IMG/VR virus record: IMGVR_UViG_3300033146_006216
Location: 1 to 39,040 of that record
Strand: one strand, 5' to 3'
Length of the DNA stretch: 39,040 nt
Source: a virus
Position 1 is the stretch's first letter. Each line of letters opens with the position of its first letter. The notes under the pieces are model-generated. The model was not told the DNA's origin. It did no database searches and was given only the letters and a program-made list of their open reading frames with translations. Shown piece by piece: positions 533 to 36,797 of this stretch. Made by a program: the position numbers and the translations under genes.

Positions 533-862
533 ATGAAAAGAGACTTTAAAAACAAACACTATAGAGAACTTTATGAAACAGGAAAAAGCAAAAAACTCAA
601 ATTTGACAAAAATATTATAAAAAAGTTTATTTTGAGGGTTAATATGATAGATGCAGCTGTTTCAATAAATGATTTAAGAAAGCCACCATCTAATGAATTT
701 GAAGGATTGGAGGGATTTAAAAATAGATTTTCAATAAGATTAAACAATCAATATCGTTTAATCTTTGATATTGACTTTGAAAATGCAGAAAAAACTGTGA
801 GTAACGTTTTGATTATAGAAATTTCAAAACATTATGAGTCTAAAGGAGGGAGAAATGGCTAG
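533..862 (+). CDS. higB: HigB-like toxin, RelE/ParE superfamily
   Basis: A 109-residue protein of the HigB/RelE fold, predicted to be a ribosome-dependent mRNA endonuclease that slows growth when freed from its antitoxin. The family signature is clear: an N-terminal basic stretch, then INDLRKPPSNEFEGLEG at about 46-62, and the core strand FSIRLNNQYRLIFDI at about 66-80, followed by a C-terminal strand with IIEISKHYE. AGGA at 523-526 serves as ribosome site. The stop overlaps the start of the antitoxin by 8 bases, the usual toxin-first order of HigBA. It belongs to the host-side flank, not to the prophage. Family confident; RNA target unknown. Confidence 0.85.
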   Translation: MKRDFKNKHYRELYETGKSKKLKFDKNIIKKFILRVNMIDAAVSINDLRKPPSNEFEGLEGFKNRFSIRLNNQYRLIFDIDFENAEKTVSNVLIIEISKHYESKGGRNG

Positions 863-1949
863 TAAATACAAACCATTTATAATTTTGGGACCAGGGGATG
901 CCATAAAAGAAGAATTAGAATTTTATGGTTGGACTCAAAAGGAATTGTCGGAAATTATTGGTTATTCTCAAAAACAAGTAAGTAATATTTTAAATAATAA
1001 AACTCCTGTTACCATGGAGCTTGCCAAATTATTAAGTGCAACATTTAAGCAATCTCCTCAATATTGGATTAATCTTGACGCAAATTATAGAGTAGCTTTA
1101 GAGGAGTCAGCAGAATACAAAAATACCTCTGCAAAAGCTTTAATTTATAGGTATATGCCAGTTAGTGATATGCGAAGAAAAGGCTGGTTGCCAAAAGATC
1201 ACAAAGATATCAAAGGCTTGATAAATGCTGTTAAAAGGTTTTGGGATATGACGGAGCTAAATTTTGATTTTTTGGAGAAGGAAGTAGATGCTTTATTCAG
1301 GAAATCTAGTGCATTTAAGAATTTTTCTCCTTATCACGCTTTAACTTGGTTGCAACAAGTAAAAAGAAATATAAAGAATAATCAGGAAAAAAAATATGAT
1401 AGAAATCAACTAGAAAAATTATATAATAATTTATGCAATTACATTTATACACCTGAGTCAATAGAGAATTTTTTGAACGAATTGTCAAATACAGGTGTGA
1501 TTTTCACATTAGTTCCACACTTAGAAAAAACATATACAGATGGGGCATCATTTTGGATTAATGGCAATCCAGTGATTGCTTATACTGCACGATATGACAG
1601 AATTGATAATTTTTGGTTCACTATAGCTCATGAAATAGCTCATATTTTGCATCATTCAAGCCAAGCACAACAAGTATTTATTGATAGTTTAGATAATCTA
1701 GATACTACAATTGAAACAGAAAAAGAAGCTGATAATTTAGCCTCTAAAAAATTAATGATTTCTGAAATTTTAGATTATTTTAAAAGCTCTAAAAGAGTTA
1801 ATCAAGCAAAGATTGATAACTGTTCTAAAAAGTTCAAAATAAATTCTTCTATTATTATTGGTTGCTTGGCTTACCATAAAAAAATAAGTTATAAAAATTA
1901 TGGAAATCAGATAAGCAAAGTAAAGCAACATATCCCAGATAAATATTAA
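855..1949 (+). CDS. higA: HigA-type antitoxin with C-terminal ImmA/IrrE-like peptidase domain
   Basis: A 364-residue protein. The N-terminal part (about 15-80) is a HigA-family XRE helix-turn-helix (WTQKELSEIIGYSQKQVSNILNN) with the typical HigA tail SPQYWINLDANYRVA. The C-terminal third carries HEIAH near residue 259, the zinc site of ImmA/IrrE (DUF955) peptidases. The fusion is about four times longer than a minimal HigA. The expected role is to bind and neutralise HigB and repress the operon. The peptidase could allow stress-triggered self-cleavage, but that is inference. I start at 855, not at an upstream ATG (834), because AAAGGAGGG sits 6 bases before 855 and gives an 8-base overlap with higB. 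Confidence 0.85.
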   Translation: MASKYKPFIILGPGDAIKEELEFYGWTQKELSEIIGYSQKQVSNILNNKTPVTMELAKLLSATFKQSPQYWINLDANYRVALEESAEYKNTSAKALIYRYMPVSDMRRKGWLPKDHKDIKGLINAVKRFWDMTELNFDFLEKEVDALFRKSSAFKNFSPYHALTWLQQVKRNIKNNQEKKYDRNQLEKLYNNLCNYIYTPESIENFLNELSNTGVIFTLVPHLEKTYTDGASFWINGNPVIAYTARYDRIDNFWFTIAHEIAHILHHSSQAQQVFIDSLDNLDTTIETEKEADNLASKKLMISEILDYFKSSKRVNQAKIDNCSKKFKINSSIIIGCLAYHKKISYKNYGNQISKVKQHIPDKY

Positions 1950-1965
1950 TCTTAAGGAGGTTACT

Positions 1966-2041
1966 ATGAAATTAGTAAATTGCTTTCATTGTTGTAGTTC
2001 AACAAAAAGAGCTTAGGATATCGCCAAATATTCTAAGCTCT
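1966..2041 (+). other. Possible 16-residue Cys-rich peptide ending in a hairpin
   Basis: AAGGAGG (1954-1960) precedes an ATG at 1966 and a 16-codon frame (MKLVNCFHCCSSTKRA) that stops at 2016. A 9-base perfect inverted repeat, AGAGCTTAG (2008-2016) and CTAAGCTCT (2033-2041), begins at the last codons. The ribosome site is very good, so a translated leader or micropeptide is possible. The hairpin has no T-tract, so it is a poor terminator. It may be an attenuation or RNA-stability element for higBA mRNA. Confidence 0.3.
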
Positions 2042-2213
2042 AAGGGTACATTAAAGTATATCTTCTTTACAATCATACTTTAAATAAATTTCCTAAAAAT
2101 GTCAATAAGAATTTCAGTTTAAAATTGATGTTATGAATGAATGTATGTATTTTACATAAATAAAATAGGAGATTGTATATGAACTACAATTTTACCTTTA
2201 TAGGAGTTAAAGT

Positions 2214-2348
2214 ATGAAAATTTATATCACTTATATTACATTAAAAAACAGAAAGAGGCCGTAAGTATCTGAATGTGGAAAGAAAGTTTTTTGTTTTGAA
2301 GTAAACGAAGATAAAAGAAAAGTTAAACCTGAAAAGGAGGTAAGTTAA
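2214..2348 (+). pseudogene. Small conserved-looking gene broken by an in-frame stop
   Basis: An ATG at 2214 with an upstream TAGGAG site opens MKIYITYITLKNRKRP, then meets TAA at 2262-2264. The same frame continues without a stop as VSECGKKVFCFEVNEDKRKVKPEKEVS up to TAA at 2346-2348, just before the next gene. Both halves look protein-like, so I read this as one gene of about 44 residues inactivated by a single stop. From memory, similar tiny proteins occur beside the downstream family, but I cannot check that here. The alternatives are two chance frames or stop readthrough. A 12-codon frame (2179-2217) with its own AGGAG site overlaps the start. Confidence 0.4.
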
Positions 2349-2349
2349 A

Positions 2350-2523
2350 ATGGCAAAAAATAAACCGTATGATGATAATGCAAGGAAAGGAGCTGTGACA
2401 AGTCGCTCTCAATTTTTTAACCCTAAAATTAACAGATGGATAAAGAGAGATACTGTAACAGGAAGAATTATGGATGTTAAAGCAGACAGTAATAAATTCA
2501 AGGGTGTCCGTAGAGAAAATTAA
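2350..2523 (+). CDS. 57-residue conserved-type small protein (function unknown)
   Basis: Starts MAKNKPYDDNARKGAV and ends NKFKGVRREN, with a strong AAAAGGAGG site 9 bases before the ATG. It is basic, with no membrane segment or Cys cluster; the central part reads RSQFFNPKINRWIKRDTVTG. It matches my memory of a widespread small uncharacterised family with the pattern RSQ..NP....W.KRD..TG.F.D.K....FKGVR, but no function is known to me. It directly follows the broken small gene and ends at a good terminator, so the two probably formed one transcription unit. Confidence 0.7.
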   Translation: MAKNKPYDDNARKGAVTSRSQFFNPKINRWIKRDTVTGRIMDVKADSNKFKGVRREN

Positions 2524-2531
2524 TTATAATC

Positions 2532-2559
2532 AGGCTTCAGTTTTCTGGAGCCTTTTTTT
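2532..2559 (+). terminator. Intrinsic terminator after the 57-residue gene
   Basis: A nine-pair stem AGGCTTCAG / CTGGAGCCT (one G-T pair) closes a TTTT loop and is followed directly by seven T residues. This is a textbook rho-independent terminator for the small-gene unit upstream. Confidence 0.85.
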
Positions 2560-2777
2560 ATTGCAAATAGTAAAAAAAGTATTACCTGAGTAATACACAA
2601 AAATTAATATAATAAACAAGATGAATGAAATGTCAGTAGGTAGAATACAATTTGAAAAGTTTAGTAAGATGCAGAGTGAATTTGAGGGGAGATTTATTGT
2701 TAATAGTTAAGGGAAGCTACTTTTTAAAAAATTATGTTATTATATAAAAAATTTATAATAATAAGAAAGGAGGAAAT
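2560..2777. other. Intergenic stretch; only a weak 29-codon frame
   Basis: A frame of 29 codons (2621-2710, MNEMSVGRIQFEKFSKM...) lies here without a convincing ribosome site, so it is more likely a remnant than a gene. The last part before 2778 is very AT-rich and presumably holds the promoter of the TPR gene, but no good -35/-10 pair stands out. Confidence 0.3.
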
Positions 2778-3293
2778 ATGTTAAAAATTATTATAGGATT
2801 AATATTTATATCTTTGTCAATTACCAATTCCTACCCTAACTCAGATGATTGTTTTAAATCAAGAGAACAAAGAAAAAACATTAATAGACTAAGATCTAAT
2901 GGTGACTATGAGAAGGTGTTAAAAATATTAGATGAAGTTATGGACTGTTATAATAATAATGAAAAAATTCAACCAGGAATGGACTATTACTATCATTTAG
3001 GGTGGACATATTTAGAAATGAAAAAATATAACAAAGCTATTAAGGCATTTAATAAGGGAATTCCATTTCAAAAAGGGTATCCATGGGTATATCTCAAAAG
3101 AGGAAAAGCTTTTGATGCTATTGGAAATAAAAAAAATGCTTCAAACGATTTAAAAAAATACTTAAGTCTATTTGACGAAAAAGAAAAAGATTTTATGAAA
3201 TATATTGATGAACATGAAGTTACGCTAAAAATTTTGCAAAAATATAAACTTTATGAAAAAGCTAAAAACATCTCTCAAAAATTGAACAAATAA
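2778..3293 (+). CDS. Secreted TPR-repeat protein
   Basis: 171 residues. The first 18-20 form a signal peptide or lipoprotein-like leader (MLKIIIGLIFISLSITNS), but there is no clear lipobox Cys, so periplasmic export or membrane anchoring is expected. Residues about 40-135 hold two to three tetratricopeptide repeats, for example YYYHLGWTYLEMKKYNKAIKAFNKG and WVYLKRGKAFDAIGNKKNASNDL. TPRs are protein-binding scaffolds and no catalytic motif is present. AAAGGAGG just before the ATG fixes the start. The gene is followed after 47 bases by the pentapeptide-channel gene on the same strand, though that gene seems to have its own promoter. The partner is unknown. Confidence 0.7.
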   Translation: MLKIIIGLIFISLSITNSYPNSDDCFKSREQRKNINRLRSNGDYEKVLKILDEVMDCYNNNEKIQPGMDYYYHLGWTYLEMKKYNKAIKAFNKGIPFQKGYPWVYLKRGKAFDAIGNKKNASNDLKKYLSLFDEKEKDFMKYIDEHEVTLKILQKYKLYEKAKNISQKLNK

Positions 3294-3305
3294 ATTTATA
3301 AAAAA

Positions 3306-3334
3306 TTGCTTAACCTAACCAATACATATAAAAT
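3306..3334 (+). promoter_or_regulatory. Promoter giving a probable leaderless mRNA
   Basis: TTGCTT (3306-3311), 17 bases, then TAAAAT (3329-3334). The expected transcription start falls on or next to the ATG at 3341. No Shine-Dalgarno sequence precedes that ATG, in contrast to nearly every other gene in the window. This fits leaderless translation. Confidence 0.45.
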
Positions 3335-3340
3335 AAAAAT

Positions 3341-5035
3341 ATGACTGAAGAAAACAAGTTACCAGTAAGTAGAGAACAATTTGAAAAGTTTATGAAGGAT
3401 CAGGTAAATTTTCAAAACGATAGAGAATATTTTTATCAATTAATTCAAGGTGTTGAGCATTGGAATAAGTGGTTTAATAACCTTAAAAATGATCCAAATT
3501 ATGAGCCGTTAGAATTAAAAGAAATTAACTTTGAATTACTAACAAAGAATGAGCTATTTCCACTTTTAAAAACTTTTAGAGAAATTGACCTTTCAAATTG
3601 TACTATAAATAAATGTCATTTTCACCAATGTGATTTATCAGGTGCAACATTTAATAAATGTAAAATGTCAGAAGTCACTTTTACAAGAGCAATATTAAAT
3701 AATACTTCATTTTATGGTTCAAATTTAGATCAAGTGGACTTTTATGATACAAAAAGTTCTAAAATTATATTTCATGAATCAAAATCTCTAAAAAATATCA
3801 ATTTTGAGGAAGCTGACTATAAAGAAGTTAACTTCAGAGATTGTGTTTTAAAAAATGTTTATGCTATTAATGCTAAATTTGATTCAATTAATTGCATAGG
3901 TTGTGAAATAATTAACTCAGATTTTTCAGAAAGTATTTTCAGAGGCTCCTCAAATTTCAACAATTCAAAGCTCAAAAATGTCAAATTTATTAATTCAAAA
4001 ATTTCAAATTCTGAGATAATAACTGAATCGCAAGACAAGGTAATTTTTAATGAATCATCTGCAATACAGCCAGAATTCAAAAATTCCACTATGAAAAATG
4101 TTGATTTTCAAAATACAAAAATGCTTAGATGTAATTTCAATAATAGTAATTTTAGTAAATGTAAATTTACTTATAAATCAAATTTTTCTGCGAGTATTTT
4201 TGATAATACAACTTTCAAAGAATGTGAGTTTGAAGATATATCATTAACATTTAGTTCTTTTATAAAATCAAAAATAATTGATTCAACTATTGAGGTTGTA
4301 AATTTAAATAAGTCATTATTTATCAATTGTTTTATAAAAGACTGTTTATTAAAGAATGTAACTCTCTCTTCAACAAATTGGGAATATGCGACATTTCAAT
4401 CTTCTGTACTCATAAAGCCCACTATTGACAAAAATACAAAATTTGAAAAAACAAAATTTGGAGATACTATTTTTGACACTATAAAAAAAGATCAAGAGAT
4501 TATTGAAATTCTATCCAAAGGTTTAGTGAATAATATACAGTTTTTTAATCCTGTTTTCGGGCGCAAAGTTCGAGATGAAGCTTGGCTGAATGCATGGAGA
4601 AATGGGATTAATAATAAAAAATCAGTGAAATTTAAAAAGTTTACAATCTTGAATAAAACTTGGAATTGGCTTAGAAGACCTATTTCTTATTACACTATGA
4701 AATTAGTACAGTTTGCTTGGTGGATTTCTTCCTTTTATGGACGAAATATTGTTTTATGGGCAATGTGGAGTGCTTTTATTGCTATTTTATTTGGATTTTT
4801 GTTTAATAATTTAGGTACTGACAATATTTACCTTAACGATGGAATTTTAGACAAAAACATTTGGACTTATATGTATTATTCTGTTGTTACTTTTACAACA
4901 CTTGGCTTTGGAGATATTACACCAATCACAAACAAAGGAATGTTTTATGTGGCTTCCGAAGTTGTATTAGGATATATTATGCTCGGTGGTTTAATATCAA
5001 TTCTTGCAAATAAGTTGGCTAGGAGAAATGATTAA
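3341..5035 (+). CDS. Pentapeptide-repeat protein fused to a K+-channel-like pore
   Basis: 564 residues in two parts. Residues about 65-385 are pentapeptide repeats of the A(D/N)LXX type (for example CDLSGATFNKCKMSEVTFTRAIL), which fold as a right-handed quadrilateral beta-helix. Residues about 440-560 hold two membrane segments around a pore loop reading TFTTLGFGDITP, a TxGFGD variant of the K+ channel filter, as in Ion_trans_2 two-helix channels. It is therefore an inner-membrane channel with a cytoplasmic or sensory beta-helix. Gating signal and ion are unknown. Channel-effector proteins of this general layout occur in stress and defence loci, but nothing here proves such a role. No ribosome site precedes the ATG. 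Confidence 0.75.
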   Translation: MTEENKLPVSREQFEKFMKDQVNFQNDREYFYQLIQGVEHWNKWFNNLKNDPNYEPLELKEINFELLTKNELFPLLKTFREIDLSNCTINKCHFHQCDLSGATFNKCKMSEVTFTRAILNNTSFYGSNLDQVDFYDTKSSKIIFHESKSLKNINFEEADYKEVNFRDCVLKNVYAINAKFDSINCIGCEIINSDFSESIFRGSSNFNNSKLKNVKFINSKISNSEIITESQDKVIFNESSAIQPEFKNSTMKNVDFQNTKMLRCNFNNSNFSKCKFTYKSNFSASIFDNTTFKECEFEDISLTFSSFIKSKIIDSTIEVVNLNKSLFINCFIKDCLLKNVTLSSTNWEYATFQSSVLIKPTIDKNTKFEKTKFGDTIFDTIKKDQEIIEILSKGLVNNIQFFNPVFGRKVRDEAWLNAWRNGINNKKSVKFKKFTILNKTWNWLRRPISYYTMKLVQFAWWISSFYGRNIVLWAMWSAFIAILFGFLFNNLGTDNIYLNDGILDKNIWTYMYYSVVTFTTLGFGDITPITNKGMFYVASEVVLGYIMLGGLISILANKLARRND

Positions 5036-5058: not shown

Positions 5059-5757
5059 TTAATCATAGCTGTTTTTGTAGTCACTAATAAACCTTAAAAA
5101 GTCATCACCTAGCTTTGTAGTTCTTCTCTGAGTTCTTAGTCCTCCAGTGTATATTATTAGCCCTTTTATTTCTAAATCATTCCAAAAAGCTTTTACTAGA
5201 TTGCAGTTATTTTCAAAAAAATTGAAGCGATTGCCAATATCATCCTTTGTACTTATATATTCTGAATAACCATTTTTGACTAAATATTTTATATGTGGTT
5301 CAGGATTGTGACAAAATTCAAGTATTTTTATATGAGGGATAGTAAGTTGATCTAGATAATTTAAAAATAATCTCTGCAACTCCTCTTCAATGTCAATATC
5401 AATTATTACATTTCCAATAATATTTAACAAAGCTTCATGCTTTTCTTGTTCATGATTTGTTATTCCAATTTGAAGACATTTGTAAATTATAGATATAAGG
5501 TTGTCTTTATTGGTAATATTTTTATTAAAATAATCCTCAGGTGTTGTTTTTAAAAACTTCATTACATCATTTAAATGAACAACAATTTTTTTTAGTAGAA
5601 CTTCCTGTCTTAGCAAAGCTGGCTCTTTTATAAAAGTTTTAAAAACAGCATGTAAGGGAAGTAGGCAACTTGTTGCAATTTCCCCAGTTCTAAACATACG
5701 GTCTATTTCTGGTTCAACATCTGGGAAAGTTTCTTTTATATTAATTGATTCATCCAA
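5059..5757 (-). CDS. Unrecognised protein next to the prophage insertion point
   Basis: About 233 residues, starting at TTG (5757) with AGGAG seven bases upstream. An upstream TTG at 5826 would also be in frame, but it lacks a ribosome site and would lie inside the proposed phage end. No family is recognised. The protein is mostly helical; the C-terminal 50 residues (NLVKAFWNDLEIKGLI ... TKLGDDFLRFI) look like a winged helix or a conserved tail. Its stop faces that of the pentapeptide-channel gene 23 bases away, so the genes converge. The proposed prophage end lies 57 bases upstream of its start, so the prophage probably separated it from its native promoter. Confidence 0.5.
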   Translation of the reverse strand: MDESINIKETFPDVEPEIDRMFRTGEIATSCLLPLHAVFKTFIKEPALLRQEVLLKKIVVHLNDVMKFLKTTPEDYFNKNITNKDNLISIIYKCLQIGITNHEQEKHEALLNIIGNVIIDIDIEEELQRLFLNYLDQLTIPHIKILEFCHNPEPHIKYLVKNGYSEYISTKDDIGNRFNFFENNCNLVKAFWNDLEIKGLIIYTGGLRTQRRTTKLGDDFLRFISDYKNSYD

Positions 5758-7771: not shown

Positions 7772-8158
7772 ATGAATGTAAACTTACTTCTTTCAGGGAT
7801 AATATCTCAAAGCGGTTTAAGTAGAGAGGAGATAGCTGACAGAATGTCTGTTATTTTAAACATTGATGTTTCCCACCACATGCTTAACTGCTGGACTGCT
7901 GAAAGCAAAAAACAACACAGATTTCCTTTAGAATTTTTCCCTGCTTTTTGTAAAGCAATTGGTAACAGTACATTGACTAAAAAACTAATTATTGAGTTGT
8001 TAAAGCCATTTAATATGACGCCAATAACAGCAAATGAACTATATGTGTTTGAACTATTCAAATTAAAAACACAAAAAGATGCATTAGACAAAAGAATTAA
8101 ACAACAGGAAAAGTTTATAAACGCTAAAGCTGAGTTTATTTTTGAGGACTGGCAATGA
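7772..8158 (+). CDS. Transposable-phage HTH-like early protein
   Basis: 128 residues. The N-terminal half (about 15-65) resembles a Cro-like DNA-binding fold: LSREEIADRMSVILNIDVSHHMLNCWTAESKKQHRFP, then FPAFCKAIGN. The C-terminal part (about 93-128) is a charged coiled coil (ALDKRIKQQEKFINAKAEF). I recall proteins of this layout directly upstream of the transposase in many Mu-like phages, with unknown function. The stop overlaps the MuA start (ATGA), so the two are translationally coupled. It may assist transposase or regulate early expression. Confidence 0.6.
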   Translation: MNVNLLLSGIISQSGLSREEIADRMSVILNIDVSHHMLNCWTAESKKQHRFPLEFFPAFCKAIGNSTLTKKLIIELLKPFNMTPITANELYVFELFKLKTQKDALDKRIKQQEKFINAKAEFIFEDWQ

Positions 8159-10317
8159 AATTGAGTACAAAAAAAATAGCAGCAATCTTAAATATATCTG
8201 CTAGAGGTGTTAGAAAAAGATTATTAAACATTAAGCCTATTGAATTTCAACAATCCACTGGCGTTAAAGGCACAACAGCATACTACGCTCTTGAGGATCT
8301 TCCTGCAGACTACAGACAAAAAATAATGGAATCTCAATCTCTTGTTCCTATAACAGTACGAAAAATTAACAATCAAATACAAGTGGGCAAAAGCAAGAAA
8401 GTTATTACAGTTGATAATTTAACAGAAACGCAAAAGCAAATAGGACTTTTAAGAGTTGAACTTATTGAAGCATACAAGGTTGAACGGATAGCAAAACAAA
8501 GGACAAAAGGCATGACCTATGCACGAACTCTTGATACTTTTCTTGGAGCTTACAACAATGGGAATTTCTTGCCACATATATATAAGGTTGTTGGGTCGGT
8601 AAATAAGAAAACATTTTATAGATGGGAAAAAATTTACAGAGACAAGGGTCTTGCAGGGATTACTCCTAAGCATGGGGCATCCAGAAAGGGTTCTTGTAAA
8701 ATTAGAGAGGATGAGAAAAAACTGCTTTTAGAAGAGTATTTAATGCCAAATAAACCTTCTGTTGCGAGTGCAATTAACTATATGAGGCTGAGGCTTGCTG
8801 TATCCGGCAATCCTTCAACCACTTCAACCAGGACACTTCAAAGATGGTTATCTCATTACAGCTCAAAAAACTTTGACCAGGTCATTTTGATGCGTGAGGG
8901 GGAAAAGGCTCTTACTGATAAAGCACTCCCTTTTGTTATTAGAGATAAATATAAGCTTGCGGTTGGAGATGTGTTTGTTGCAGATGGACATGTCTTGAAC
9001 TTTTTAATAAAAGACCCAAGCAAAAACAACACACCAGTAAGAATGACACTTGTTGTTTTTCTTGACTGGAGGTCCGGTTATCCTGCAGGTTTGTCACTTA
9101 TGCCAACAGAGAATATTTATAATATTCACACGGCTCTTTACAAAGCCATCCTTAACTTAGGCACATTTCCAAAAGTAATTTATTTGGACAATGGACGTGC
9201 CTTTAAAGCCAAAATATTTACCAAAAAATCTGCACAAGACCTTGATTTTAAATCTGCAGGATGTTCCGGACTTTACAAAAAATATGGTATGGAAGTGATT
9301 TTTGCTAAACCTTACAGTGGCAGATCCAAAGTTGTTGAAAGGTTTTTTAAAGAGCTTAATAAGTTTGAGCAACAAATGCCTTCATATATTGGGAACAACA
9401 TTGAGAACAAACCTGCACATATGATGAGAAACGAAAAATGGCATCAAGCCATGTCTTCTGATGTGGTACCAACAATTGAAGAAGTTAATGCAATGCTGTC
9501 AGGCTGGCTTGAAAATGTTTATGGACAGCAAGAAAGCAAAGGACTCAAGCCAGGAGAAACTCCTTTTGAATTATTTACTGCAGCAAAACAGCATGATATT
9601 GACCCTTTACAGTTGGCTATTGATCTTGCCCCAGAAGAAAAGAGATTAGTTGGCAGAAATGGGGTTGAGTTGTTTGGTATTAAATATTTTGATGAAAGCC
9701 TTTATGGTTTAAGAGAATATGTGAGAGTTAAATATAGTTTTTCTAATTTAAAGCAAGTATATGTTTTTGATGAGCAATATAATTATATCTGTACAGCTAA
9801 GGCTGTCAGTTCTAAAAATCCTTTAGCTGTTTTAAATAAAGATTCTTACGATTATCAAGAGTTAAAAAATGACTTAAGAAAGCATGGACAACTTAAGAGA
9901 GCTACCAAAAAAGTTGCAGAACTTTCTCTCTCTAATCGCTCTGCAACGGATGCAGATTTTTTTGACATTATTGGTGTTCCACTTCCTTCCAAGCCTGTAA
10001 AACAATTACCCAAACAGCAAAAACAGCTTACTCCGGCATCTTTACAAATTGAACAATCTTATGAAAACGATACTGAAGAAATGCCTTTGTTGGATGGAAT
10101 GGAAAAATACATTTATTTACTTGAACACGGTCTGGAGAATGTAGATCCTGAGTTTATAACTCTATTTGAGGAGACTGAACTTTGGCAAACCACTTATGGC
10201 TCTGAGACTGGACAAATAAGACTTTCACAGATAAAGAAAAAAGGACAGGGGGTGAAGAGTTTAAAAACAATTGACGGTGGGGAAAAAGAAAAGACCAGTG
10301 CAGCAACACCGGTCTAA
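8155..10317 (+). CDS. MuA-type DDE transposase
   Basis: 720 residues (Mu A is 663). Residues 1-65 are the winged-helix N-terminal domain (STKKIAAILNISARGVRKRLL). The next part (about 90-240) should hold the end-binding domains, including GAYNNGNFLPHIYKVVGSVNKKTFYRWEK. The catalytic RNase H-like core has D277 (VADGH), D345 (YLDNGRAF) and E395 (KVVERFFKE), matching Mu D269, D336 and E392 in spacing and context. The C-terminal region is longer than in Mu and rich in Lys/Gln; it should contact MuB. The protein joins phage ends to target DNA for integration and replicative transposition. It presumably binds the 17-base end motifs. Confidence 0.95.
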   Translation: MKLSTKKIAAILNISARGVRKRLLNIKPIEFQQSTGVKGTTAYYALEDLPADYRQKIMESQSLVPITVRKINNQIQVGKSKKVITVDNLTETQKQIGLLRVELIEAYKVERIAKQRTKGMTYARTLDTFLGAYNNGNFLPHIYKVVGSVNKKTFYRWEKIYRDKGLAGITPKHGASRKGSCKIREDEKKLLLEEYLMPNKPSVASAINYMRLRLAVSGNPSTTSTRTLQRWLSHYSSKNFDQVILMREGEKALTDKALPFVIRDKYKLAVGDVFVADGHVLNFLIKDPSKNNTPVRMTLVVFLDWRSGYPAGLSLMPTENIYNIHTALYKAILNLGTFPKVIYLDNGRAFKAKIFTKKSAQDLDFKSAGCSGLYKKYGMEVIFAKPYSGRSKVVERFFKELNKFEQQMPSYIGNNIENKPAHMMRNEKWHQAMSSDVVPTIEEVNAMLSGWLENVYGQQESKGLKPGETPFELFTAAKQHDIDPLQLAIDLAPEEKRLVGRNGVELFGIKYFDESLYGLREYVRVKYSFSNLKQVYVFDEQYNYICTAKAVSSKNPLAVLNKDSYDYQELKNDLRKHGQLKRATKKVAELSLSNRSATDADFFDIIGVPLPSKPVKQLPKQQKQLTPASLQIEQSYENDTEEMPLLDGMEKYIYLLEHGLENVDPEFITLFEETELWQTTYGSETGQIRLSQIKKKGQGVKSLKTIDGGEKEKTSAATPV

Positions 10318-10353: not shown

Positions 10354-11052
10354 ATGAAGAAAAAATTTGCAATTACACAAAATGTTGAACAATCCAATGC
10401 TCTTGTTGACAGTCTTATTAACACTCCAACAGGAATTCCAGGCATGGGTTTAGTTTTTGGAAGACAAGGACTTGGTAAAACACAATGGGCAATGAAGTGT
10501 AGTATTGAAAGACAGGCAATATATGTGCAATTGAAAGCAATGTCCACTCCACGGTGGTTTTTGTCTGAGCTTGTAAGTGAACTTGGAGTTACTCCAAAAT
10601 ACACTACGCAAGATTTATTCAGACAAGCAATTGAAGCCTTAACCTCTGCAGAGAACACCAAAAGATTATTGATTATTGATGAGATTGATGAGTGTGATAA
10701 CAAGAATGTACTACTAACAATTAAAGATTTATATGACCATACATTTTTTCCAATATTACTTGTAGGAATGCATGAAGCACAAAAAAAGATTAGACAGTTC
10801 CCACATGTCTATGGGCGGATACAGCAGATTTATGAATACAAAAAATATTCTGCAATACATATTAAGGAAATTGCAGATCAACTTTGTGAAGTTGAGATTG
10901 ATATTGAAGTAGCAAAATGGCTTGAGAATATAAGTGGGAAAACATTAAGGAAAGTTATTATTGTTCTTTATACAATAGAGAAAAAAGCAAAAGGCAACAA
11001 CATCCAAAGCGTTAACTATAAGCACTTAAAACAAATGAGGCTTGTAAAATGA
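10354..11052 (+). CDS. MuB-type AAA+ ATPase, target DNA activator
   Basis: 232 residues. Walker A is G36-RQGLGKT43 and Walker B is LLIIDE with D109-E110. The rest fits ATPases of the MuB/TniB/IstB class: ATP-dependent DNA-binding filaments that choose target DNA and stimulate the transposase. It lacks the longer N-terminal HTH appendage of Mu B (312 residues), as do B3-like versions. AAGGAG lies ahead of the ATG. It overlaps the next gene by 4 bases. Confidence 0.9.
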   Translation: MKKKFAITQNVEQSNALVDSLINTPTGIPGMGLVFGRQGLGKTQWAMKCSIERQAIYVQLKAMSTPRWFLSELVSELGVTPKYTTQDLFRQAIEALTSAENTKRLLIIDEIDECDNKNVLLTIKDLYDHTFFPILLVGMHEAQKKIRQFPHVYGRIQQIYEYKKYSAIHIKEIADQLCEVEIDIEVAKWLENISGKTLRKVIIVLYTIEKKAKGNNIQSVNYKHLKQMRLVK

Positions 11053-12355: not shown

Positions 12356-12536
12356 AAAAGTAATTGAAAAGCTTGCAGCAGACAAGACACTGACAGAACT
12401 TCCGGTTGTTTTACTTGAAGCTTCTTCATATGAGTGTGTTGATGAAGTTGAAACGAAAGCAGCATACTATAGGAAAAAAGGGTTTTTAATTGCAACAGTA
12501 TATTTTAAAGGAGGATATTATGGCAATAAAAGATAA
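12336..12536 (+). CDS. Small early protein, unrecognised
   Basis: 66 residues, MLSRLNKKVIEKLAADKTLTELPVVLLEASSYECVDEVETKAAYYRKKGF. It has alternating helices and no motif I can name. GAAGGTG precedes the ATG. It overlaps both neighbours (20 bases upstream, 17 downstream), a packing typical of phage early genes. Confidence 0.5.
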   Translation: MLSRLNKKVIEKLAADKTLTELPVVLLEASSYECVDEVETKAAYYRKKGFLIATVYFKGGYYGNKR

Positions 12537-13140
12537 ACAAGGTAACTGGATAGATGGAAGAGGGAAATCAGTCCCTGCAAAGTATGTGGATAAGGTAGAT
12601 AAACAGCGTGACAAAATTGTTGAAAAGCTGTTTAAAAAAGCACAACGCATTCATAAACTTTTAAAAGAGTTTAAATCCTTATCTGAACAGGAAATACTTG
12701 CATTCCAGGAGTATTCACAGAGAGAATCCGGAGTGCAAGTTGGAGGAGTTAAAGGTAATGTGACACTTTCTACTTTTAGTATGGATAAGAAAATTGAAGT
12801 TGACGTGTCTGAAAGATTGGATTTTGATGAAAGGTTGCAACATGCCAAACAACTACTTGATGAACTTCTTACAGAATGGACAGAGAACGCAAGAGATGAG
12901 TTGAAGGTTTTAATTACCCAAGCTTTTGAAACTGATAAGAAAGGCAAGTTAAATGTAAAAGCTATTTTAAACTTAAGAAGAATAAAGATTAAACATCCAA
13001 AATGGAAAAATGCAATGGATTTAATAGATGAAGCAAGGCATGTGTCCGGAAGTAAAAAATATATCCGGTTTTCTAAAAGAGATGGACAGGGTAAATGGAA
13101 AGGTATTGTTTTAGACTTTGCTTCCATTTCAGGAGAATAA
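12520..13140 (+). CDS. DUF3164 family phage protein
   Basis: 206 residues from ATG 12520, chosen because AAAGGAGG lies 8 bases ahead; an upstream ATG (12490) lacks a site. The DUF3164 pattern is clear: D.QGNWIDGRGKSVP near the start, VGGVKGNVTLSTFSMDKKIEVDVSERLDFDERLQHAKQLLDE in the middle, then DKKGKLNVKAILNLRRIKIKHPKWKNAMDLI and the C-terminal YIRFSKRDGQGKWKGIVLDFASI. The family is common in Mu-like phages; its biochemical role is not established to my knowledge. It is not the host-nuclease inhibitor Gam, which I did not find elsewhere in this region. Confidence 0.8.
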   Translation: MAIKDKQGNWIDGRGKSVPAKYVDKVDKQRDKIVEKLFKKAQRIHKLLKEFKSLSEQEILAFQEYSQRESGVQVGGVKGNVTLSTFSMDKKIEVDVSERLDFDERLQHAKQLLDELLTEWTENARDELKVLITQAFETDKKGKLNVKAILNLRRIKIKHPKWKNAMDLIDEARHVSGSKKYIRFSKRDGQGKWKGIVLDFASISGE

Positions 13141-13872: not shown

Positions 13873-14190
13873 TTGCAAAGTATTGAAGATGTGGTTTTAG
13901 AGCTATCAAATCCCTTAAAGCTTGACTTGGTGGCAAAGATTGTAGTAGGTACGATAGTTGCAGATTGTGAAATAAAAACAAGGAGAGTAAGTATGAACTG
14001 TAAAGATTGTAAAAGAGTTTTAGAACCACATGATTTTTGGGTAAGAACAGATGAAACAATACCTTCTGTTGAATTATTTTATGAATGCACTGTGTGCAAC
14101 AAAGTTTTTAGAACAATTGTATGTGCAGGTGAGTTTATAGAATATACAGATCAGGATGTTTCAAACAACAATTCCGGAGGTGAAAAATGA
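13873..14190 (+). CDS. Small zinc-binding protein, start uncertain
   Basis: The frame from TTG 13873 gives 105 residues, with GAGGA ahead but at long spacing. An internal ATG at 13993 with AAGGAGAG immediately upstream would give a 65-residue protein, MNCKDCKRVLEPHDF ... YECTVCNKVF, with two CxxC pairs forming a zinc ribbon. The second start has the better ribosome site; the upstream 40 residues also look protein-like, so both forms may be made. Function unknown. It is the last gene before the hammerhead ribozyme. Confidence 0.5.
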   Translation: MQSIEDVVLELSNPLKLDLVAKIVVGTIVADCEIKTRRVSMNCKDCKRVLEPHDFWVRTDETIPSVELFYECTVCNKVFRTIVCAGEFIEYTDQDVSNNNSGGEK

Positions 14191-14274
14191 AAACTTAAAA
14201 ATTAATAAAACAGAGACATGCAGGGAGATTTATTAACTATTAGCACTTTATGAGTTTTTTTTATGATTCTGTAA

Positions 14275-14338
14275 TGCCGAAACCGGGCAGAAAGCTTGCC
14301 CGGTCTACCGGAGATAGCCTCCCGGTACTGATGAGGCA
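14275..14338 (+). ncRNA. Type II hammerhead self-cleaving ribozyme
   Basis: All core positions are present. Stem II closes the element: TGCC (14275-14278) with GGCA (14335-14338). GAA then A15.1 are at 14279-14282. Stem III is CCGGGC (14283-14288) with GCCCGG (14298-14303), with A15.1 pairing U16.1 at 14304. H17 is C at 14305. Stem I is TACCGG (14306-14311) with CCGGTA (14322-14327). CTGATGA is at 14328-14334. Cleavage is predicted between 14305 and 14306. Ends in stem II make it type II. It lies between two genes of the early transcript, and the local GC content is well above its surroundings. Confidence 0.92.
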
Positions 14339-14383
14339 GGCTACTTGTTTACACATGAATTAAAGGATTGTGGAGGGCAGACA

Positions 14384-14707
14384 ATGGACGGTAAATATAT
14401 ATTGGAAGTTTTAGAAACTGAAATGACAACAGCAAAAAAACAAAGAGATTTTTGGGAAAGAAAACTAAACGTAAATAATTATCAAAAAGTGATTGAAATA
14501 GATAAAAAACTGGCTACAAAAGCAATGACAAATAGGGAAGCATTAGAGTTATTACAAGATAGAAAAAAATATATGAAAAAAGCAAAACAACAAAACAAAA
14601 ATTTATTGAATTGGATGGACAAAATTTGTGACTTAGATAAAAAAATAGATACCCTTTCAAGCGAAATTGCGAGGATTGAAATAAGGCTAAACCACTATGG
14701 CAACTAA
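14384..14707 (+). CDS. Coiled-coil early protein
   Basis: 107 residues from ATG 14384, chosen for the GGAGG site at 14372-14376; an in-frame TTG at 14345 would start next to the ribozyme. The whole protein is charged and helical, with heptad-like stretches (TAKKQRDFWERKLN, MTNREALELLQDRKKYMKKAKQQNKNLL, DKKIDTLSSEIARIEIRL). No family recognised. It is the first gene downstream of the ribozyme cut, so its mRNA 5' end may be made by self-cleavage. Its stop overlaps the DUF1018 gene. Confidence 0.55.
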   Translation: MDGKYILEVLETEMTTAKKQRDFWERKLNVNNYQKVIEIDKKLATKAMTNREALELLQDRKKYMKKAKQQNKNLLNWMDKICDLDKKIDTLSSEIARIEIRLNHYGN

Positions 14708-15080
14708 TACACAAAAAGCAAAGATACATATTGCAAAGGCAGAGTTGCAGTTAACGGAAGATGATTATCGTTCAATACTTGAAGGTTTTGGGGTTGAAAG
14801 TTCTAAGAACTTGAGTGAAAAAAAAGCAGATGAGTTAATTGCATACTTTAAGCAACTTGGATGGACTCCAAAAATAAAAAACAAAAAATGGCTTGAGGGA
14901 GCGGATCCACGAATCAAAAAGGCTTGGGGACTTTGGTGTTCTGTTTCCTATGCAAAAAATAAAGCAGCAGCCTTTTGTTCCTTCTGTAAAAAATACGGTG
15001 CTCCAACTCCAGAAAAATTAAAAGGCAATCAAGCAACTAAAGTTCTTGAAGTTGTAAAGGCAATGTCCAAGAGAGGATAA
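14697..15080 (+). CDS. Mu gp16-like protein (DUF1018)
   Basis: 127 residues. KAKIHIAKAELQLTEDDYRSILEGFGV, then LSEKKADELIAYFKQLGW, then DPRIKKAWGLWCSVSYAKNKAAAFCSFCKKYGA match the DUF1018/Mu gp16 regulatory-protein family, found next to the middle and late activator genes in Mu-like phages. Its exact role is not settled. It starts inside the end of the preceding gene and is directly followed by the Mor-like gene, the same order as in other transposable phages. Confidence 0.85.
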   Translation: MATNTQKAKIHIAKAELQLTEDDYRSILEGFGVESSKNLSEKKADELIAYFKQLGWTPKIKNKKWLEGADPRIKKAWGLWCSVSYAKNKAAAFCSFCKKYGAPTPEKLKGNQATKVLEVVKAMSKRG

Positions 15081-15347
15081 ATGGAAGATTTTAGAGAGTT
15101 ATTTGAGTTCATAAAACAAACAGAAACTACACTTGAAGATGTTTTAAGAACTTTTGGTGGTGGAGAAGCAATTTATATACCTACACTTAAAACTTTCACC
15201 TGTCGCTTAACTAAAGAAAAGATAGTAACTGATTATACTTCCGGTATGAGCCAAAAAGAATTAATGAAAAAGTATAGGGGAACAGGGGTTTCCAGGTCAT
15301 TTATTAGAGGTGTAATTAAAGAATATATTGAAAATAAAAGGAGGTAA
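15081..15347 (+). CDS. Mor-type transcription activator
   Basis: 88 residues, shorter than Mu Mor (129). The family signature FGGGEAIYIP is at 25-34, followed by a helix-turn-helix at about 47-85 (IVTDYTSGMSQKELMKKYRGTGVSRSFIRGVIKEY). Mor/C proteins bind a dyad upstream of weak promoters and recruit RNA polymerase for middle or late genes. The obvious target in this window is the 37-base palindrome at 17614-17650. The N-terminal dimerisation part is very short. ATG follows the preceding stop directly (TAAATG). Confidence 0.8.
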   Translation: MEDFRELFEFIKQTETTLEDVLRTFGGGEAIYIPTLKTFTCRLTKEKIVTDYTSGMSQKELMKKYRGTGVSRSFIRGVIKEYIENKRR

Positions 15348-32143: not shown

Positions 32144-32505
32144 TTGATATGTTGTCTTTTAGATATGACATTAAATGCCCATATAATTGTTATTTATTTG
32201 TCTGTGATGTTTTTGAGGTTGTAAAAGGGTGTGAATTTAAAAGACCTTTTGAAAGTTTGCCAATAGATAGATCTTGTTGGAATGACATTTTAAATTCTTA
32301 TTTCAGCAAAAAAAAGAAACGTATTGAACCTTCAAAATGGGACTTGGTTGTGATGAAAATAAAAGGAGTATTGCATCTTGCCATTTATGAAGGAGATGGA
32401 ATGATTATCCACACAACTTTAGATAGACCGGTAAGAAGTTCTTATTCCAGGTATCTAAAACATATTATAGGAGTGTATGAGATATGTCATCAACCGGAAG
32501 TTTAA
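32140..32505 (+). CDS. NlpC/P60-like tail tip peptidase (lambda K-like)
   Basis: 121 residues. Cys17 in YNCYLFV and His79 in VLHLAIYEGDGMIIH follow the NlpC/P60 Cys-His order; His91 is also nearby. In lambda K the matching domain follows a Mov34-like part, which is missing here. It could cut peptide cross-links during DNA entry or act in tip assembly. Overlaps the J-like gene by 22 bases. Confidence 0.65.
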   Translation: MIDMLSFRYDIKCPYNCYLFVCDVFEVVKGCEFKRPFESLPIDRSCWNDILNSYFSKKKKRIEPSKWDLVVMKIKGVLHLAIYEGDGMIIHTTLDRPVRSSYSRYLKHIIGVYEICHQPEV

Positions 32506-35500
32506 TTGGTGGAATAATAGGAGCTGTTATTGGTTTTGCCACCGGTGGTTGGGGTATAGCTGTTGCGTGGGGATTCAGCATTGGCTCCTCTGTAGGAGCG
32601 TTAATAGACCCACCTTCCTTTGGTAATCTTAATTATGGAGAAACAGACCCTGCTCAGCAGTCCAATGTATATAGCTATAATGGATTAAAAAATAGTGAAG
32701 ATAAAAGACAACCTGCTCCAATTGATCTTGGAGAGCATATGGTTGCAGGGAATAGGCACTATTGGGAAAGGCTTCCTGCTGTAGACAATAATTCTGTCCT
32801 TGCTGTTGGGATTACTCTTGCTCTTGGGAAAATTAAAAGTATTAAGAGGATATGGGTTAATGATATTCCTTGGGAGTTATTAACAGGCAAAAAAGGTTAT
32901 CAATATTGGCTTGGAGACAAAGACCAAACTTGGGATAATCCGGATTATTTTGAAGGTTCCGGTGTTGGGAAATCTCTTATTAGAGGCGCTTATGAGACAA
33001 CAGTTGACAATACTTTAATTGAGGAAGGAGGTGCTGTTGTATCCGGTTCTTCTCCTGATGGTTCTCAGGACATTGTTGTTCAACCAAAAGTTATTGAAGA
33101 TGCTGGAGATGGTGGTCTTACGGATGGAACAGACCCTGACCCTGACACAGGTTTTGATGGAGATGAACCTGAATATCAATTACAGCTGGATAATGCTTAT
33201 ATTTATCAATCTCCTGTTCTTGATGCTACAAGTCTTTTTGTTGCTTTCCAAATGAACGCATTAGGGTATTTAAATAGAGAGACAGGAGATTTAGAAGAAC
33301 ATTCTATAAGGATTTCTGTTTATTACAGAAAAGTTGGAGAAACTAATTGGAATTGGGGTTTTACCAAAGTTAAAACTGCAAATTCAAATAGTAAATTAGA
33401 ATGGGAGTGGTTAGTTAAAGACAATTTAGAACCCGGACAATATGAAGTTGCAATTATTAATCACAATGATGTTTTAGATGAATATGAGTATTTAGATGAA
33501 CTTAGATTGGCATACCACAAAGAAGGTTCTGATGATCATTACAATTTTAGAGGAATTGCAAAAATAGAGTTTTATTTTATAGCCAATTCACAATTAAATT
33601 ATCGCATGCCTACTTTTAAAATAGAAACTGAAGGCAGTGAGGAAATAGAGGTTTTTTCAACTCCTTCTGTGTCAACAATTGGGTATAGTAGGAATCCTGC
33701 ATGGCATATTTATTATTTACTTAAAAATCATGTTTATGACCCTTTTCCTGCTGATGCTTTTGATATTCAATCTTTTATTGATGCAGCAACATATTTTGAT
33801 GATAATGATATTAAATGCGATTTAGTGATTGATAATTACAATAGTGCTGAAGAATTTATTCAACAAATATGCACAGCCTCCGGAATGTATTTAAGAGAAA
33901 GTTTTGGTGTGTATTCTCTTGTTATTGACAAAGATGAGGCTTCTACATTTCAATTTGATATGACTACTATGGTTAATCCTGCAATTAGTGAAGATGGAAT
34001 GCCTCCGGAACAACAAGAAACAATTTCAATTGAACCTATACCTGTTGAAGGTAAATATACCCATATTATTGCAACGTTTAGAAATAGAGATTTAGATTAT
34101 GAATATGATGAGATTGAAGTAATTGCAGATGATTGGGATAAAGCAACAGAACCTTATAATCCCTTAAAGGTAAGTTTGCCAGGTGTATCCAGAAGGTTTC
34201 AAGCTGAATTTTTAGTACAAAAAATGATGCAACATTCAAGAAAAGCAGAGGTGATGGTTTCTTTTAAGGCAACTATAGCAGCTTTAAATGTTGATGTTTT
34301 AAATATTGTAAATATTTCACATGAACTACCAGGTTGGGGGTATGATGCAAATGGCGTTAAAGTGGATGCAGGTCCTTTATTCCGGATTATAAGTATTGCG
34401 TATGGACAAAATGATGAAATCCAAATTACTGCAATAAATCACTCTCCAGATATACATTCTGTTACAATTGGCACTTATGACCCACCTTCCTTTGATAAAG
34501 TCACAAAATGCAATCCTGTAACTGGTTTAACTTTATCTATTGTTAACAGAACAGATGATTCCGGGTTTCAATTACCTAAGCTTAAAATTGATTTTACAAA
34601 GCCAGTTGATGTAAATTTCAAACAAGCTCAAATCTGGCTCAAATCTGACAGCATGAAGGATTACCAAAAAGTTGGAGAAACTCCAAATAATTCAATCTCA
34701 ATTGATAATTTAACAGAAGGGAAGAGTTATTCAATTGCTGTTGTAGCAGTTTCAAACAGTAATCCAGCATGGATTGCGTCAATTCCTGAAAGCCCAAAAG
34801 CATCTATTTCAATTCCTTTTGTAACTCCTCCAAATGTAACTTTCAATGAGCCTGGTTGTGTTTATGATGGTTTAACAATCATTGCAGAAATAAATCAATT
34901 ACCAAATTACTCCGGCTATTATGAATTGAGAACCTCCAATCCTGTCGATTGGGAAAATGATGCATCCGGAAAGTTGGCAACTTCATTAAGTAATGTTTTA
35001 ACCGTTGTTCAAAAATCCACTGCAGAAAGTATAACTATTTACGCTAAAGCTAAGACACTGAAAGGAGTGTATTCACAATCTGCTGCATCTTTAGAATTAT
35101 CTAAAAGTCTATATGAAGCTGTAACACATAATGATATTGCACAAAGTAACTCCAAAAATAAAATCCTAAATGGTGGTGTCTTATATAACTATACCACCAC
35201 TGTAAATGGAAAAGTTTATACAAAATTTGATAATTTTTTTTCCGGTGCTTCTGTCTCTGTAATTTCATTGCCAGAGTCTCAAAAATCACAATGGGGTTAT
35301 GGTCCTGATTCACTTTTTAAGGATGCAGAAGATTTGTTGTGTGGTCAGGATATAATTATTCAACCCAAAAACGCTGCAAGGTATATGACTTTAAGCTATT
35401 GGTGTACATGGGCTGAAAAGAATTCTATTAGATATGATAATCCAATTATACTTTTTGATTATATGGATGGTAATCATGTTTCTCTCGGAACTGAAGAATT

Positions 35501-36797
35501 TTTGGGCACAGCAGGAGAAACAACATGGTTTATTAACAAGCACAAACTTACTGTTCCTGCAGGAACAGAGCTTGTACGAATGTATATTAAAGGAACAGGT
35601 GTTTTTGACTGTTTTATGTTTGTTGAAGGCACTTTATATCCTCAATTTATGTTGCATTCTGCAGATTCCGGAGATGGTCTTTTGTCAAACTTGGAGCAGA
35701 TTTCATATCTCCAAATGTTGATGAACCTAAATGCACACATGGACGAGATTACTGGGACAATAGATACTTTCTTAGATAGGACTAAACTTTACTATGAATT
35801 AGAAAATAATGCATTTATTCTTAAAACAAAAGCCTTCAGATTGCTTTCAGGCAATATTGAGGGGAATTATGCCATGATTGAGGCAATGGATGGAACATTA
35901 GTTCTCAAAACCAATACTGAGGGTTATATTTCACAAATTGCATTAGGTAGTACAGGGTATGGATCAGTAATTAATCTTAACTCAGATCAGCTAAATGTTT
36001 CAGCTTTTACAGTATTTACAAATGGAAAAAATTTAGTGGAAAATATAAATGCCTCTCTTACTTTAATTGATGGAGGGATGTTACAATCAGATACTATAAT
36101 CTCAAACATTATATTTTCTGGAGCTGCACTTGAAATAAATAGCAGTACTCCAACAAGAGAACATCCAGTATATGGAACAATAGCAACCGGTGTGTATTTA
36201 GGTTGCAGTGCAAATCCATTAGATACAGATCCTGCAAGAGCAAGGTTTGATATGGATGGTAATTTTTGGATAGGTGCTGTAAATTTTGGAACAGCTCCTT
36301 TTACTTTAAATCCACATGGAGATATGCTTGTTAATTCTGCCAGATTTAACGGAACAATTCGGGTTGATGCTTCTTTTAGCCCACAAACAAGCAAATGGAG
36401 TACTGCCCAAGTTTCAAACGATTACGTCGAAATTACAGAAGATAGCATTGGAGTTTATTATACTGCATACACAACGCCAACTAGTTGTGTAATGAAAAAA
36501 GACCGTTTGACAATAGGAAATGGTCTACGTCAAACTGAATATAATAAATACGGTTTGTTCGAGTGGGACTATTATAATTTAACATGGAAACAATACTGCT
36601 TAAGTATTTATGGTTTAGTAAATATAACAGATTCAGTAACTTTACTTGATTTTAATTTAGGAACCGCAGATGAAGGCTTTATTAAGCCATTGGGTTACAT
36701 GTCTGCAGATGGTACAAAGGGGATATCACAGACAATCGATTTAACAAGCATCACTTCACTTACCGTGAAAAATGGTTTGGTTGTTGGTGCTGCATAA
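32484..36797 (+). CDS. Tail tip host-specificity protein (lambda J-like)
   Basis: 1437 residues, the largest gene here. A Gly-rich hydrophobic N-terminus (GSLIGGIIGAVIGFATGGWGIAVAWGF), as in lambda I-type proteins, appears fused to the J-like hub (AVGITLALGKIKSIKRIWVNDIPWEL; AEEFIQQICTASGMYLRESFGVYSLVIDKDE). Fibronectin-like domains follow (about 660-880), then a long C-terminal fibre part. It forms the central tip and contacts the receptor. A run of Asp/Pro/Gly (DGGLTDGTDPDPDTGFDGDEPE, about 213-234) looks like a linker or an insertion in the hub. Confidence 0.8.
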   Translation: MSSTGSLIGGIIGAVIGFATGGWGIAVAWGFSIGSSVGALIDPPSFGNLNYGETDPAQQSNVYSYNGLKNSEDKRQPAPIDLGEHMVAGNRHYWERLPAVDNNSVLAVGITLALGKIKSIKRIWVNDIPWELLTGKKGYQYWLGDKDQTWDNPDYFEGSGVGKSLIRGAYETTVDNTLIEEGGAVVSGSSPDGSQDIVVQPKVIEDAGDGGLTDGTDPDPDTGFDGDEPEYQLQLDNAYIYQSPVLDATSLFVAFQMNALGYLNRETGDLEEHSIRISVYYRKVGETNWNWGFTKVKTANSNSKLEWEWLVKDNLEPGQYEVAIINHNDVLDEYEYLDELRLAYHKEGSDDHYNFRGIAKIEFYFIANSQLNYRMPTFKIETEGSEEIEVFSTPSVSTIGYSRNPAWHIYYLLKNHVYDPFPADAFDIQSFIDAATYFDDNDIKCDLVIDNYNSAEEFIQQICTASGMYLRESFGVYSLVIDKDEASTFQFDMTTMVNPAISEDGMPPEQQETISIEPIPVEGKYTHIIATFRNRDLDYEYDEIEVIADDWDKATEPYNPLKVSLPGVSRRFQAEFLVQKMMQHSRKAEVMVSFKATIAALNVDVLNIVNISHELPGWGYDANGVKVDAGPLFRIISIAYGQNDEIQITAINHSPDIHSVTIGTYDPPSFDKVTKCNPVTGLTLSIVNRTDDSGFQLPKLKIDFTKPVDVNFKQAQIWLKSDSMKDYQKVGETPNNSISIDNLTEGKSYSIAVVAVSNSNPAWIASIPESPKASISIPFVTPPNVTFNEPGCVYDGLTIIAEINQLPNYSGYYELRTSNPVDWENDASGKLATSLSNVLTVVQKSTAESITIYAKAKTLKGVYSQSAASLELSKSLYEAVTHNDIAQSNSKNKILNGGVLYNYTTTVNGKVYTKFDNFFSGASVSVISLPESQKSQWGYGPDSLFKDAEDLLCGQDIIIQPKNAARYMTLSYWCTWAEKNSIRYDNPIILFDYMDGNHVSLGTEEFLGTAGETTWFINKHKLTVPAGTELVRMYIKGTGVFDCFMFVEGTLYPQFMLHSADSGDGLLSNLEQISYLQMLMNLNAHMDEITGTIDTFLDRTKLYYELENNAFILKTKAFRLLSGNIEGNYAMIEAMDGTLVLKTNTEGYISQIALGSTGYGSVINLNSDQLNVSAFTVFTNGKNLVENINASLTLIDGGMLQSDTIISNIIFSGAALEINSSTPTREHPVYGTIATGVYLGCSANPLDTDPARARFDMDGNFWIGAVNFGTAPFTLNPHGDMLVNSARFNGTIRVDASFSPQTSKWSTAQVSNDYVEITEDSIGVYYTAYTTPTSCVMKKDRLTIGNGLRQTEYNKYGLFEWDYYNLTWKQYCLSIYGLVNITDSVTLLDFNLGTADEGFIKPLGYMSADGTKGISQTIDLTSITSLTVKNGLVVGAA

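Follow-up and report, generated by a model that had tools for sequence, protein, structure and literature searches.

The closest described counterparts of the element analysed here are the type II hammerhead ribozymes of Rfam family RF02276, which were reported from prophages in 2011 by Perreault et al. (PMC3088659). Other members of the type cleave in vitro, tandem prophage hammerheads cleave in E. coli, and in one type II hammerhead a pseudoknot was required for fast cutting (PMC3088659). A second group of counterparts comprises those tandem prophage hammerheads and HHphage of haloviruses HF1 and HF2; there an early gene follows HHphage at a distance of 13 nt, and an RNA 5' end has been mapped no more than 3 nt from the cut site (PMC3088659). 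The purpose of hammerheads in phages was left open in that study (PMC3088659), and the recurrent slot before the late-gene switch described below makes it experimentally testable.

The window, meaning the whole stretch of DNA analysed, is a 39,040-base virus record and represents a Mu-like phage. Its ribozyme shares with RF02276 and the type II hammerheads described by Perreault et al. (PMC3088659) the core, the permuted layout with an open stem II, the pseudoknot joining loop I to the 3' tail, and the phage or prophage setting. It differs from them in its loop I of 10 nt and in the sequence of its pseudoknot (PMC3088659), and its stem II can form four pairs where the RF02276 consensus has two. 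Like HHphage and the tandem prophage hammerheads, it would be part of a phage polycistronic transcript, but those belong to other phage groups and precede other downstream genes, and HHphage is a variant in its core (PMC3088659).

Architecture of the window ribozyme

RF02276 matched the plus strand at 47.8 bits, above the curated gathering cut-off of 37 that defines membership (E-value for the entire window 6.4e-7, with all of the model, positions 1-66, aligned), and was the only Rfam family to exceed its own cut-off anywhere in the 39 kb. The parts of the element are as follows.

14275-14345, plus strand: type II hammerhead ribozyme (Rfam RF02276, Hammerhead_II), cmscan 47.8 bits
14275-14278, plus strand: 5' strand of stem II, TGCC, pairing with 14335-14338; two pairs here in the Rfam consensus
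14279-14281, plus strand: core GAA (G12-A14), from base-by-base reading
14282-14304, plus strand: stem III hairpin, nine pairs including the core pair A15.1-U16.1, 5-nt loop AAAGC
14305, plus strand: C17; expected cleavage site 14305/14306, predicted from its position in the hammerhead core
14306-14327, plus strand: stem I hairpin, six pairs, 10-nt loop I
14315-14320, plus strand: 5' strand of the pseudoknot, TAGCCT, in loop I; register covaries in 138 subclass ribozymes
14328-14334, plus strand: core CTGATGA, from the Rfam alignment and base-by-base reading
14335-14338, plus strand: 3' strand of stem II, GGCA, from base-by-base reading
14338-14343, plus strand: 3' strand of the pseudoknot, AGGCTA, in the 3' tail, pairing with loop I

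The catalytic core of the family was complete (CUGAUGA, GAA, A15.1-U16.1, and C at H17), with zero changes, and the layout was that of type II, with loops closing stems I and III and stem II open. Stem I is formed by TACCGG (14306-14311) and CCGGTA (14322-14327), and stem III by ACCGGGCAG (14282-14290) and TTGCCCGGT (14296-14304), the innermost of its nine pairs, among which A15.1-U16.1 is counted, being G-U. Loop I and the 3' tail can form six Watson-Crick pairs, so that the pseudoknot of four or more pairs found in the majority of type II hammerheads is present as well. A14338 has two mutually exclusive partners, U14275 in a fourth stem II pair or U14320 in the first pair of the pseudoknot. 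The ribozyme has a G+C content of 61%, against 33% for the genome.

Judged by its sequence, then, this is a genuine type II hammerhead ribozyme. A first-pass annotation had proposed that a Mu-like phage carries a complete type II hammerhead and had suggested the Rfam type II model as a check, and the match at 14275-14345 (plus strand), with its intact core, bears that identification out. Its coordinates, its cut site at 14305/14306 and its stems I (6 bp) and II (4 bp) also stand, while its stem III of six pairs plus the core pair has to be corrected to eight plus the core pair. The interval that it gave was 14275-14338; the pseudoknot was overlooked, and the element runs beyond 14338.

Gene neighbourhood and recurrence in Mu-like phages

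The plus strand of the window carries, in order, genes for MuA, MuB, DUF3164, GemA, Mor and SSB, an arrangement that places the phage among the Mu-like phages. The Pfam match of Mor is weak and lies slightly below threshold (23.4 vs 24.9 bits), and PHROGs supports the assignment. The genes bearing on the position of the ribozyme are listed here.

8155-10317, plus strand: MuA-like transposase (Pfam Mu-transpos_C, E 2.8e-11)
10354-11052, plus strand: MuB-like ATPase (Pfam AAA_22, E 8.2e-16; TniB, E 7.8e-8)
12490-13140, plus strand: DUF3164 gene, the anchor used for related phages (Pfam E 2.7e-64)
13993-14190, plus strand: small upstream gene without a PHROGs match, 65 aa counted from its ATG; its stop lies 84 nt 5' of the ribozyme
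14384-14707, plus strand: downstream gene, 107 aa, overlapping gemA, no PHROGs family; ribosome-binding site GGAGGG at 14372-14377
14697-15080, plus strand: gemA, the Mu gp16 homologue (Pfam GemA, E 2.6e-15; phrog_286)
15081-15347, plus strand: Mor-like late transcription activator (Pfam Mor, E 6.2e-5; phrog_532, E 1.6e-6)

The ribozyme (14275-14345) thus lies in sense orientation in the slot between the end of the DUF3164 gene (13140) and the start of gemA (14697). A predicted hairpin with an eight-T run in its 3' half (14210-14272) occupies the gap after the upstream gene, directly 5' of the ribozyme. Two other readings of the site were discarded: an intrinsic terminator, as no GC-rich hairpin with a trailing T run was reported at this place, and a peptide from the 37-codon open frame that passes through it (14250-14363), which has no visible ribosome-binding site. 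Single-protein searches of viral contigs with DUF3164 or MuA returned no close relatives of the window phage, and a search with GemA returned one distant locus.

Recurrence of the arrangement was examined in loci sampled by DUF3164 alignment (80 from bacterial genomes and 80 viral), together with nine annotated phage regions, using a structural scan that covered all three hammerhead layouts. About 40 hammerheads were found in 171 Mu-like loci (2.76 Mb), against 2 after mononucleotide shuffling. Among the 153 loci in which DUF3164 is followed by gemA, the scan gave 38 hammerheads, every one of them in sense orientation, and 37 of the 38 were situated between the two genes, in a stretch that makes up 5.3% of the strand-bases. 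An Rfam match was confirmed in all 10 loci picked from the scan hits, including DMS3 and Vibrio phage martha. In the Mu-like ribozymes stem I was paired in 98% and stem III in 93%, with several types of pair, compared with 25-47% in slid registers.

The Rfam model by itself exceeded its cut-off in 22 of the 80 Mu-like viral records found via DUF3164 (15 of 50 and 7 of 30). Roughly three quarters of the sampled Mu-like records, many of which are fragments, had no hammerhead above the cut-off, and given this patchy presence the ribozyme is not generally required by Mu-like phages. The ribozyme of DMS3, used as a 91-base query, matched 123 phage records, of which 119 belong to Pseudomonas phages; among the matches listed, the region was annotated as hypothetical proteins or not at all, and so the ribozyme had passed unannotated. 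The slot ribozyme occurs in widely used laboratory phages, DMS3 and JBD30, and in over 100 related records. In DMS3 itself the type II hammerhead before gemA (NC_008717, about 8950-9021; 5612-5683 of locus L131) scored 66.2 bits, and its cut is predicted at 8982/8983 of NC_008717.

The first-pass annotation had placed the ribozyme between small accessory genes and gp16/Mor, which agrees with the sense strand and with MuA, MuB and DUF3164 upstream and gemA, mor and SSB downstream. It had also called this location unusual, a view that the 37 of 38 hammerheads in the slot, the 22 of 80 records and the approximately 120 DMS3-type Pseudomonas phages contradict. The kind of ribozyme is known, type II hammerheads in prophages having been described already in 2011 (PMC3088659). 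The surprise is the recurrence of one slot in Mu-like phages: neither an earlier description of it nor any link of hammerheads to gemA, Mu-like or transposable phages was found in the literature, most subscription journals lying outside the search.

Some of the sampled phages carried more than one copy. Three Mu-like loci (L373, L279 and L256) had two hammerheads per phage, one just 5' of MuA and one 5' of gemA, those of L373 lying at 4120-4187 and 8696-8760, respectively. Another locus (L303, record G085 32339-35541) gave seven type II hammerhead matches in about 3.2 kb, four of them above the Rfam cut-off.

Structural subclasses, pseudoknot and stop codons

The ribozymes fell into two main groups. 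In the common Mu-like kind stem II is 2 bp long and loop I is mostly of the GTGGTG type, while the other subclass has a stem II of 3-4 bp and a CTGATGA-GRCAG tail. The first was found in loci with Mu-like genes in 42 of 43 cases and the second in loci without detected Mu-like genes in 147 of 150, but each set came from searches favouring its own kind (the DUF3164 anchor and the GRCAG pattern, respectively) and short loci are numerous, which likely makes the split between phage types sharper in the sample than in nature. The three exceptions, with a 3-4 bp stem II in a Mu-like setting, are the window, L350 and L373.

With the proteobacterial Mu-like hammerheads, such as those of DMS3 (NC_008717, about 8952-9013) and Vibrio phage martha 12B12, the window ribozyme shares its sense orientation and its slot between early genes and gemA-mor. 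In those, stem II has 2 bp, loop I is usually of the GTGGTG type and a stop codon mostly adjoins the ribozyme, whereas the window ribozyme belongs to the other subclass and is preceded by an 84-nt gap. With members of the 3-4 bp subclass (L316, L372, L040 and L373) it shares stem II, loop I and the pseudoknot layout, and differs from most of that subclass in its Mu-like setting. By string similarity its nearest counterpart is L316 (0.85). In L373 a ribozyme of the window subclass has the stop codon of an early gene on one side and the gemA-mor pair on the other. The genes directly 3' of window-subclass ribozymes in other phages showed no shared theme, falling into 24 families with at most 3 of 59 in any one.

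Across 138 distinct ribozymes of the window subclass, four adjacent positions of the pseudoknot were paired in 85-91%, by C-G, T-A, G-C and A-T pairs. Slid registers were mostly far lower, with single slid positions reaching up to 91%; since the search pattern prescribed the first tail bases and the tails are rich in G and C, it is the register as a whole, and not any single column, that bears the argument for the pseudoknot.

The stop codon of the upstream gene was the other regular feature. For upstream open frames of at least 40 codons, the interval from -10 to +6 relative to the ribozyme start contained it in 98% of the ribozymes of the common Mu-like kind and in 80% of those of the other subclass, and it lay exactly at 0 or +1 in 56% and 54%, respectively, these counts being non-independent through shared descent. 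Shifted positions gave 6-7% and less than 1%, a control that consists of random nearby positions, mostly inside genes, and so makes the contrast to intergenic features of other kinds look too large. Across phages with type II hammerheads, the commonest arrangement has the upstream stop ending exactly where the ribozyme starts or one base into it. The window departs from the usual distance of up to about 10 nt, the nearest stop of an open frame of at least 40 aa being 84 nt upstream; a TAA at 14272-14274 adjoins the ribozyme but closes a frame of a mere three codons.

Proposed function and alternative explanations

The sequence, structure, position and strand of the element, together with the covariation seen in its relatives, make it likely that this is a working type II hammerhead, which would cut the early mRNA cotranscriptionally between the replication genes and gemA-mor. 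As the RNA emerges, stem III would fold, followed by stem I, and the tail would then close the pseudoknot, holding stems I and II together. Self-cutting after C14305 would split the early mRNA into a side carrying MuA, MuB and DUF3164 and a side carrying gemA, mor and SSB, and would leave the coding regions on both sides intact, which fits the flush stop codons of the relatives. Because the type II layout closes both stem I and stem III, each product would have a hairpin at its new end. The stem III hairpin, bearing a 2',3'-cyclic phosphate, would form the 3' end of the upstream mRNA, and the downstream one would begin with a 5'-OH, the stem I hairpin and the pseudoknot, 5' of the next ribosome-binding site. 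Type II would be the sole permutation in which both cut products have a closed hairpin where the RNA was cut, and this may be the reason for its use by phages. The two mRNAs could then decay at different rates, and this would set the amounts of GemA and Mor. From the letters of the genome we infer the cutting, the protection of the ends and the altered output of Mor; an effect on mRNA stabilities and on the timing of late activation, as the first-pass annotation had suggested, is plausible and in keeping with the recurrence of the position.

An alternative is that the ribozyme processes a leader. A promoter-like site (TTAGCA-16-TATGAT, 14240-14267) would start an RNA at about 14274, from which the ribozyme would trim approximately 31 nt, leaving a gemA-mor mRNA whose 5'-OH hairpin end resists 5'-end-dependent decay. 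The site ends 7 nt 5' of the ribozyme, its predicted start coincides with the first base of the ribozyme, and the window has an 84-nt gap in place of the flush upstream stop of its relatives. Against this, promoter-like sites of this sort do not exceed their chance frequency (8 found vs 10.7 expected in shuffles), and the ribozyme is usually intercistronic, since most Mu-like relatives have the upstream stop adjoining it. Leader processing is accordingly considered unlikely.

It is likewise unlikely that cutting occurs constitutively and brings no regulatory benefit, the ribozyme being a passenger or small mobile insert that is tolerated as neither coding region is harmed. Such an origin would account for its patchy presence (22 of 80 records), for the occurrence of the same subclass in other phages ahead of unrelated small genes, and for the array of seven ribozymes in one record. 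Against it, the uniform sense orientation, the one preferred slot in Mu-like phages and the covariation of stems and pseudoknot argue for selection for cutting at a particular place.

Folding predictions bear on whether the window copy is active, and values for the window only are used here, since comparison of energies across ribozymes was spoiled by 2-nt loops arising from over-extended stems. When the 74-nt RNA is folded in isolation, the structure of lowest predicted energy (-31.9 kcal/mol) disrupts stems II and III, and the hammerhead fold, calculated at -27.2 kcal/mol by an energy model that omits the 6-bp pseudoknot, lies 4.7 kcal/mol above it. The stem III hairpin alone gave -15.6 kcal/mol. 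In the growing transcript, the hammerhead stems are predicted to be adopted up to 14338, with stem III forming earliest. That the element is an inactive relic or misfolded copy, with an intact core but no cutting, is also improbable: the preference for another fold and the failure of 4 of 18 consensus-conforming hammerheads to cleave when tested by Perreault et al. (PMC3088659) speak for it, but the omitted pseudoknot, the early formation of stem III and the unchanged core bases all speak against it.

A wider role may tentatively be suggested, in which the type II hammerheads of phages serve as intercistronic punctuation, set flush to a stop codon, with both coding regions kept whole and a hairpin on both new ends. 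Mu-like phages would have placed at least two subclasses of them before gemA-mor, and sometimes before MuA, uncoupling the late-gene switch from the replication-gene mRNA.

At its left end (533-5035) the window carries genes foreign to the Mu-like module, which perhaps represent host flank. As read by eye from the translations, they include a HigB-like gene paired with a HigA/ImmA-like one, and a gene for an ion-channel-like protein with pentapeptide repeats.
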